Shown here: piece by piece, positions 13,692-53,744 of the stretch
How the letters are laid out: each line of letters opens with the position of its first letter
How positions within the stretch are numbered: position 1 is the first letter of the stretch
DNA from: Bacteroidota bacterium
GTDB lineage: Bacteria > Bacteroidota > Bacteroidia > Flavobacteriales_D > Sanyastnellaceae
NCBI GenBank assembly: GCA_027619225.1
Contig: JAQCFW010000001.1
Location: 62,001-126,000, forward strand
Reading direction: 5' to 3'
Length of the DNA: 64,000 bases
Translations under genes and position numbers: made by a program
The notes under the pieces: generated by a model
The model's database searches: none
Told to the model about the DNA's origin: nothing
The model's input: only the letters and a program-made list of their open reading frames with translations

Positions 13692-13769
13692 TTTTTACTT
13701 TTTAAGTCCGCACATTCACGATGCAAAAGAGATCGCACTTTTCGTGTTTAAGCCCTTTCGAATTTGTTG

Positions 13770-13842
13770 TCGGGATGACAGGACTTGAACCTGCGACTTC
13801 ACGTCCCCCAGACGCGTACTCTACCAACTGAGCTACATCCCG
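13770..13842 (-). tRNA. tRNA-Pro (anticodon GGG)
   Basis: Read on the minus strand, a cloverleaf can be drawn. Acceptor CGGGATG pairs with CATCCCG, the D arm is GCTC-AGTTGGTA-GAGT, anticodon stem CGCGT/ACGTG encloses the loop CTGGGGG with GGG at positions 34-36, and the T arm holds TTCAAGT. The C1-G72 pair and A73 are typical of bacterial tRNA-Pro. CCA is not encoded. The 5' end is only 11 bp from a minus-strand -7 box. Confidence 0.95.
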
Positions 13843-13853
13843 ATTTGGAGACT

Positions 13854-13870
13854 CAAAGTTAGTAACTTTG
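13854..13870. promoter_or_regulatory. Symmetric bidirectional promoter core for tRNA-Pro and pheT
   Basis: The 17-bp palindrome CAAAGTTA-G-TAACTTTG carries a perfect TAnnTTTG box (TAACTTTG) on each strand: 13863-13870 on plus, facing pheT (ATG 19 bp further), and 13861-13854 on minus, facing tRNA-Pro (5' end 11 bp further). The boxes are back to back with one base between. That they are used is inferred from consensus and spacing. Confidence 0.6.
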
Positions 13871-13889
13871 CATCACTTTAAAACCAATT

Positions 13890-52522: not shown

Positions 52523-52915
52523 CTACCCTTCACACAATTCAACCAATACTTTCGCAGTATCAGATGGGTGAAGGAAGGCAATTCGTTTTCCATCAGCACC
52601 GTCTTTGGGGCCGCTTATGCATCTGTATCCTTTAGATTCTAATTCTGATATTTCCATTTCAAGATCATCGACATGAAATGCGATGTGGTGAAGACCTTCT
52701 CCACGCTTTGAGATATGTCTAGCGATGGGGCCATCTTCAGATGTAGATTGAAGGAGCTCTATTTTAGAATCGCCTGTTTTGAAAAAAGAAGTCACGACAT
52801 CCTCAGACTCTACCTCTTCCCTTTTATACGGAGAGGTGCCAAGAACATCTGTAAAGATCTTTTCAGCTGCCTCTAAATCTGTTACTGCTATTCCAAGGTG
52901 ATCTATTTTCTTCAT
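52523..52915 (-). CDS. mce: Methylmalonyl-CoA epimerase
   Basis: Interconverts (R)- and (S)-methylmalonyl-CoA in propionate metabolism. 130 residues, single VOC module. KKIDHLGIAVTDLEAAEKIF holds the first metal His near residue 5, then KIELLQSTSEDGPIARHISKRGEGLHHIAFHVDD with the second His, and the late VLVELCEG with the Glu ligand. Length and motifs match the enzyme well. No methylmalonyl-CoA mutase is nearby. Confidence 0.93.
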   Translation of the reverse strand: MKKIDHLGIAVTDLEAAEKIFTDVLGTSPYKREEVESEDVVTSFFKTGDSKIELLQSTSEDGPIARHISKRGEGLHHIAFHVDDLEMEISELESKGYRCISGPKDGADGKRIAFLHPSDTAKVLVELCEG

Positions 52916-52937: not shown

Positions 52938-52953
52938 TAAAGTTATACCTTTG
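52938..52953. promoter_or_regulatory. Back-to-back -7 boxes for mce and the SDR gene
   Basis: Plus-strand TACCTTTG at 52946-52953 (exact) lies five bases before the SDR ATG at 52959. Directly abutting it, 52938-52945 reads TAACTTTA on the minus strand (one mismatch), 22 bp before the mce start. Same outward-facing design as at 13854-13870. Confidence 0.45.
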
Positions 52954-52958
52954 CCGCC

Positions 52959-53744
52959 ATGAATCTATCACTCAAAGGACGCCACGCATTAGTGTGTGGA
53001 GCATCACAGGGAATCGGGCTGGCGGCGGCGAGAGAATTGGCGGAGTTGGGAGCTAAAGTAACACTGATGGCACGCAACTCAGAAAAATTAAAGGAGGCCA
53101 TACAAAGTCTAGCAAAAGGTGATCATGAGGGTCACGGATATGTTGTGGCCGATTTCAGCAACCACAAAGAGGTCAGCGAGGTCGCTCTAAACTTAACTGC
53201 TGCTTCGAACATAGACATCCTAGTAAATAACACCGGGGGGCCGAAAGGGGGAGCAATCTCAGAAGCAGATATAGAGGAGTTTACCAACACATTTGAGCAG
53301 CACTTACTTTGCAATCATGTTCTTGCTCAAGCCGTACTTCCCGGGATGAGAGCGCGCGGTCATGGCAGGATTGTTAATGTAATCAGTACTTCTGTTAAAG
53401 CTCCACTTAACGGGCTTGGTGTGTCGAATACGATAAGAGGGGCGGTAGCGAATTGGTCTAAAACATTAGCCAACGAAGAGGGGAAGCACGGGATAAGGGT
53501 AAATAATGTGTTGCCCGGAGCTACGAATACCGGCAGGTTGAAAAGCATTATCGAAGCGAAGGCTTTGAAGGGTGGAACATCAACCGAGGAAATTCAGAGA
53601 AATATGGCGGGAGCTGTGCCGGCTGGAAGGTTTGGTGAGCCCCATGAAATCGGCGGTGTTATTGCTTTTTTATGCACTCCTGCAGCTGACTATATAAGTG
53701 GGATTAACGTGCCAGTTGATGGGGGGCGAACAGCATCACTATAA
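52959..53744 (+). CDS. SDR-family oxidoreductase with atypical active site
   Basis: 261 residues. The Rossmann beginning HALVCGASQGIGLAAARELAELGAKV is complete and NNTGGPKGG (the NNAG-like motif) lies near 90. The usual catalytic YxxxK is replaced: the matching place reads GVSNTIRGAVANWSKTLANE, with Ser and Arg instead of Tyr and Lys. This pattern (LSNxxR) is known in a 3-oxoacyl-ACP-reductase-like SDR subgroup whose chemistry is unclear. The C-terminus, YISGINVPVDGGR, is standard. NAD(P) binding is likely; the reaction is uncertain. Confidence 0.88.
   Translation: MNLSLKGRHALVCGASQGIGLAAARELAELGAKVTLMARNSEKLKEAIQSLAKGDHEGHGYVVADFSNHKEVSEVALNLTAASNIDILVNNTGGPKGGAISEADIEEFTNTFEQHLLCNHVLAQAVLPGMRARGHGRIVNVISTSVKAPLNGLGVSNTIRGAVANWSKTLANEEGKHGIRVNNVLPGATNTGRLKSIIEAKALKGGTSTEEIQRNMAGAVPAGRFGEPHEIGGVIAFLCTPAADYISGINVPVDGGRTASL

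Follow-up and report, generated by a model that had tools for sequence, protein, structure and literature searches.

The tRNA-Pro(GGG)/pheT intergenic region

In the window, by which we mean the whole stretch of 64,000 nucleotides analysed, the 17-mer CAAAGTTAGTAACTTTG lies at 13854-13870, between the divergent tRNA-Pro(GGG) and pheT genes (Table 1). Each of its arms reads TAACTTTG on one of the two strands, an exact TAnnTTTG. The sequence thus confirms what the initial annotation had described, a palindrome with one exact -7 box per strand, facing tRNA-Pro on one side and pheT on the other. The spacing to both genes, which it had called suitable, is indeed so, since the boxes end 11 nt before the 5′ end of tRNA-Pro and 19 nt before the ATG of pheT. 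A genome-wide search returned a single exact copy of CAAAGTTAGTAACTTTG, and orthologues of pheT were present in 60 of 60 relatives. Start sites were placed by the rule of Flavobacterium psychrophilum, where the -7 box occupies positions -12 to -5 (PMC9723704). Transcription of pheT is then predicted to start near 13875 on the plus strand, with a 15-nt leader, and that of tRNA-Pro near 13849 on the minus strand, with a 7-nt leader, the two predicted starts being 26 bp apart.

Table 1. Coordinates of the features at the tRNA-Pro(GGG)/pheT locus (window numbering).
Feature	Position	Strand	Remarks
tRNA-Pro(GGG) gene	13769..13842	-	ARAGORN; Rfam tRNA, 63 bits
-7 box TAACTTTG facing tRNA-Pro	13854..13861	-	exact TAnnTTTG
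Central base of the palindrome, separating the boxes	13862	.	replaced by T in G008, whose arms are both unchanged
-7 box TAACTTTG facing pheT	13863..13870	+	exact TAnnTTTG
pheT, phenylalanyl-tRNA synthetase beta subunit, 823 aa	13890..16361	+	ORF; name from the initial annotation

At the composition of the window, about 1.1 perfect odd palindromes of 17 bp are expected per 64 kb and two are found, so that the symmetry is unsurprising; the palindrome as a rare feature was rejected on this ground. Two boxes standing back to back and separated by 1 bp are found once against 0.01 expected per window, and it is therefore the double box, not its symmetry, that is unusual. On its own, TANNTTTG is found 52 times in the window against 53 expected; since TAnnTTTG occurs at chance frequency, box matches alone are no proof of a promoter.

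The position of the tRNA-facing half is more informative. About a dozen other tRNAs of this genome are preceded by TAnnTTTG at 9-16 nt, and the 11 nt of tRNA-Pro(GGG) are typical of them, which gives this half independent support. Both sides show what a housekeeping (sigma-A) promoter would be expected to have, with TAnnTTTG ahead of the tRNA at the usual distance and a conserved TAnnTTTG before pheT. Neither side showed a conserved -33 element in the genus alignment: a TTTG at 13844-13847 (15-bp spacer) and a TTG at 13887-13885 of the minus strand (23-bp spacer) are not kept across the genus. The -33 motif was likewise not found in F. johnsoniae. We also observed TTAC or TAAC directly before several of the tRNA boxes (Met, Val, Pro, Glu, Gln and Lys; L047-L075), which is perhaps an extended -7 element.

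Conservation of the palindrome within the genus

The comparison covered 14 genomes of the genus and one genus-type contig from a genome binned to another genus. The tRNA stands beside pheT in 12 of the 14 genomes (the G001 contig ends within the tRNA), and all 12 share the tRNA-facing half of the window. Seven of them also match it in the pheT-facing half, which reads TAACTTAG, one step off the -7 box consensus, in the other five (G001, G002, G007, G011 and G013), whose PheT proteins are equally distant from that of the window (78-79%) and which probably form one clade. The same TAACTTAG variant precedes pheT in G095. In all 14 genomes, the pheT side carries TAnnTTTG with at most one mismatch.

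An alignment of 13 sequences shows 15 of the 17 palindrome columns to be invariant, compared with 6 of 30 in the flanking intergenic sequence (Fisher p 8e-6, a value that ignores shared ancestry). The tRNA-facing box is invariant in eight of its eight columns and the pheT-facing box in seven of eight, the free nn positions of both boxes included, although two plain boxes would not require this. Judging from these alignments, the 17-mer forms a conserved core within an intergenic gap that otherwise changes fast across the genus. An alignment of this gap in related genomes had been proposed as a check of the initial annotation, and it upheld the palindrome wherever the gene pair is kept, with the pheT box one base off in the five genomes above. 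A genome binned to g3 has a second pheT with a g1-type tRNA gap and the palindrome (L130, G113:C169), probably on a misbinned contig.

Loss of the tRNA and independent change of the two halves

The relatives provide a natural experiment, in which one gene of the pair was lost and only its half of the core decayed. In G004 the tRNA has decayed (84% over 68 nt, with none called by ARAGORN), and in G005 tRNA-Pro(GGG) has no match in a genome that is 95% complete. The tRNA-facing half reads TAAAATTT in G004 and TTTAGTTA in G005, in place of CAAAGTTA, and the pheT-facing half after the loss reads TAACTTTG in G004 (8/8) and TAACTTCG in G005 (7/8). The sequence just before pheT is common to both genomes; as they look like sisters, the loss of the tRNA may have been one event. 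Where the tRNA was lost in G005 (L013), a terminator-like hairpin, CCCCGAC...GTCGGGG-TTTTTT, lies directly before the pheT box.

Each half has gone the way of the gene it faces, a pattern that favours two promoters over a two-armed operator. Lying between divergent genes, the perfect inverted repeat does sit where an operator is usually found, and the conserved nn positions would also fit binding by a dimer that regulates the tRNA or pheT. However, such a site should have co-conserved half-sites and several copies in the genome. Here there is one exact copy, each half changes independently, with no compensating change in the other, the loss of the tRNA alone is accompanied by decay of the tRNA half, and both halves match the promoter box of the phylum, so that we regard an operator as very unlikely. 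The same independence, seen in the tRNA-loss genomes and in the clade where only the pheT half is altered, gives no support to the view of the symmetry as a design that the initial annotation had put forward.

A second alternative is that a single half works as a promoter, while the other matches by chance or acts as its upstream element. It draws on the chance frequency of the box matches, on the TTAC or TAAC ahead of several tRNA boxes, as at tRNA-Pro(GGG), and on an AACTTT stretch beside the tRNA box in genus g5, though a separate pheT box lies farther along in that genus. The pheT half nevertheless outlives the loss of the tRNA in G004 and G005, no other TAnnTTTG is present between the tRNA and pheT, and in the five genomes with an altered pheT half the tRNA half is unchanged, all of which makes a single promoter unlikely. 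Finally, a 7-bp stem could fold in a transcript of the palindrome, as a weak RNA hairpin or terminator would need, but the fold is barely better than that of shuffled sequences (z -1.2) and lacks a T run, the Rfam scan gave no element besides the tRNA, and the decay pattern follows the promoter halves; we consider this explanation extremely improbable.

The 17-mer is, in our reading of the sequence, very probably the fused core of two divergent sigma-A promoters, each half of which is kept for its own gene. A polymerase on the minus-strand TAACTTTG at 13861-13854 would start tRNA-Pro near 13849, and one on the plus-strand TAACTTTG at 13863-13870 would start pheT near 13875. Because the boxes are 1 bp apart with no common base, each would cover the region just upstream of the other, so that the two should exclude each other and only one polymerase could be seated at the double box at a time. 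Selection would act on each half through the gene it serves, and the perfect symmetry would have come about as a by-product when two similar boxes met. Competition between tRNA-Pro and pheT for the promoter, as put forward in the initial annotation, is possible under this arrangement.

Probable origin from separate boxes

The same divergent pair is found in the sister genera g3, g5, g10, g14 and g20, with gaps of 82-157 bp, and where the boxes are readable each gene has its own separate box, tens of bp apart. In most g5 genomes the pheT box is TAACTTTG, standing alone at 19-20 nt from the ATG, a distance like that in the present genus. As the pair has separate boxes in the sister genera, the packing in this genus is probably derived; on the simplest reading of the comparison, the gap would have been shortened in the ancestor of the genus, thereby bringing the boxes together. 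That the AACTTT-like stretches beside both g5 boxes mediated the deletion is speculation.

Comparison with known promoters

The initial annotation held that the arrangement is not listed among the usual promoter types, but bidirectional promoters have already been described in E. coli and Salmonella. Their divergent starts are 7-25 bp apart, most often 18, and they share a near-symmetrical -10 element at which opposed polymerases exclude each other (PMC12825309, PMC10268837). In E. coli, five such promoters were too weakly active at the basal level to compete, and competition emerged only after activation of one direction (PMC12825309). The tRNA-Pro/pheT site resembles them in its short pseudo-symmetrical core, divergent transcripts and expected polymerase exclusion, and in that both often lie between divergent genes, and it would work in the same way if both boxes are used. 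It differs in having two whole asymmetric boxes. The predicted 26 bp fall just outside the 7-25 bp of PMC10268837, and the -10 positions shared there have no counterpart, as 13854-13861 and 13863-13870 have no base in common. The site is therefore a variant of the bidirectional promoters and not a member of the group.

With regard to Bacteroidota sigma-A promoters (PMC7366714, PMC9723704), both boxes fit the TAnnTTTG consensus and the usual distances; those studies, however, treat such promoters as directional, unlike the double box. Ordinary separate divergent promoters are like those of the sister-genus pair, with boxes tens of bp apart, compared with 1 bp here. Our literature search returned no paper joining bidirectional promoters, Bacteroidetes and transcription start sites. 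The site would extend bidirectional promoters to a phylum with an asymmetrical -7 box; since this box is not symmetrical, two boxes are juxtaposed rather than one being shared.

Recurrence of back-to-back boxes

Across the genus, the strict pattern CAAAGNTA-N0-20-TANCTTTG occurs 63 times, mainly between divergent genes, and the reversed control pattern 2 times. An excess of this kind is missing from most other genera in the family, but g4 (G016, G035 and G072-G076) has 33 matches against 5, often with wider gaps. When gaps of up to 30 were allowed, the 70 genus matches fell into 20 clusters, 15 of them with gaps of 0-10 bp (p 0.0004 versus an even spread). The shared-TA form CAAANNTANNTTTG showed no enrichment across the genus (61 matches, 92 in the control), and an E. 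coli-like shared element was rejected on this basis. A fixed spacing as the design was rejected as well, as the gaps range from 0 to 26.

In the window's genome, a looser pattern showed no enrichment genome-wide (17 matches, 17 in the control). Among the 15 examined from each set, however, 12 of the matches and 0 of the controls fall at divergent gene starts (Fisher p 1e-5); nine of those 12 are long-ORF pairs by a script rule and three were assigned by hand, two with a tRNA on one side and one with a 94-aa ORF. As far as sequence patterns can tell, members of the genus habitually pack divergent promoters closely, at no fixed spacing, and the perfectly symmetrical case with 1 bp is one instance within that range. 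About 20 site clusters in one genus offer a test bed for whether the packing of promoters in compact genomes leads to interference.

Many back-to-back sites have a start codon 4-5 nt past the end of a box, around positions 1501-1530 of the loci (L002, L082, L084, L085, L086, L087, L089 and L091). The predicted transcription start then lies at or next to the start codon, so that leaderless mRNAs are likely, sometimes in both directions. In F. psychrophilum, leaderless mRNAs make up only about 5.5% (PMC9723704). Back-to-back sigma-A boxes with gaps of 0-10 bp may, tentatively and with somewhat less than even confidence, form a recurrent bidirectional class in this genus, with no common element, which would physically couple adjacent genes through mutual exclusion and often start leaderless mRNAs.

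The window itself contains a second near back-to-back pair at 52938-52953, TAAAGTTA|TACCTTTG. Its halves adjoin with no gap, and the left one deviates at a single base. The pair lies between two ORFs named by eye, a VOC-type one on the minus strand (52523-52915) and an SDR-type one on the plus strand, the latter starting at 52959, 5 nt past the box.
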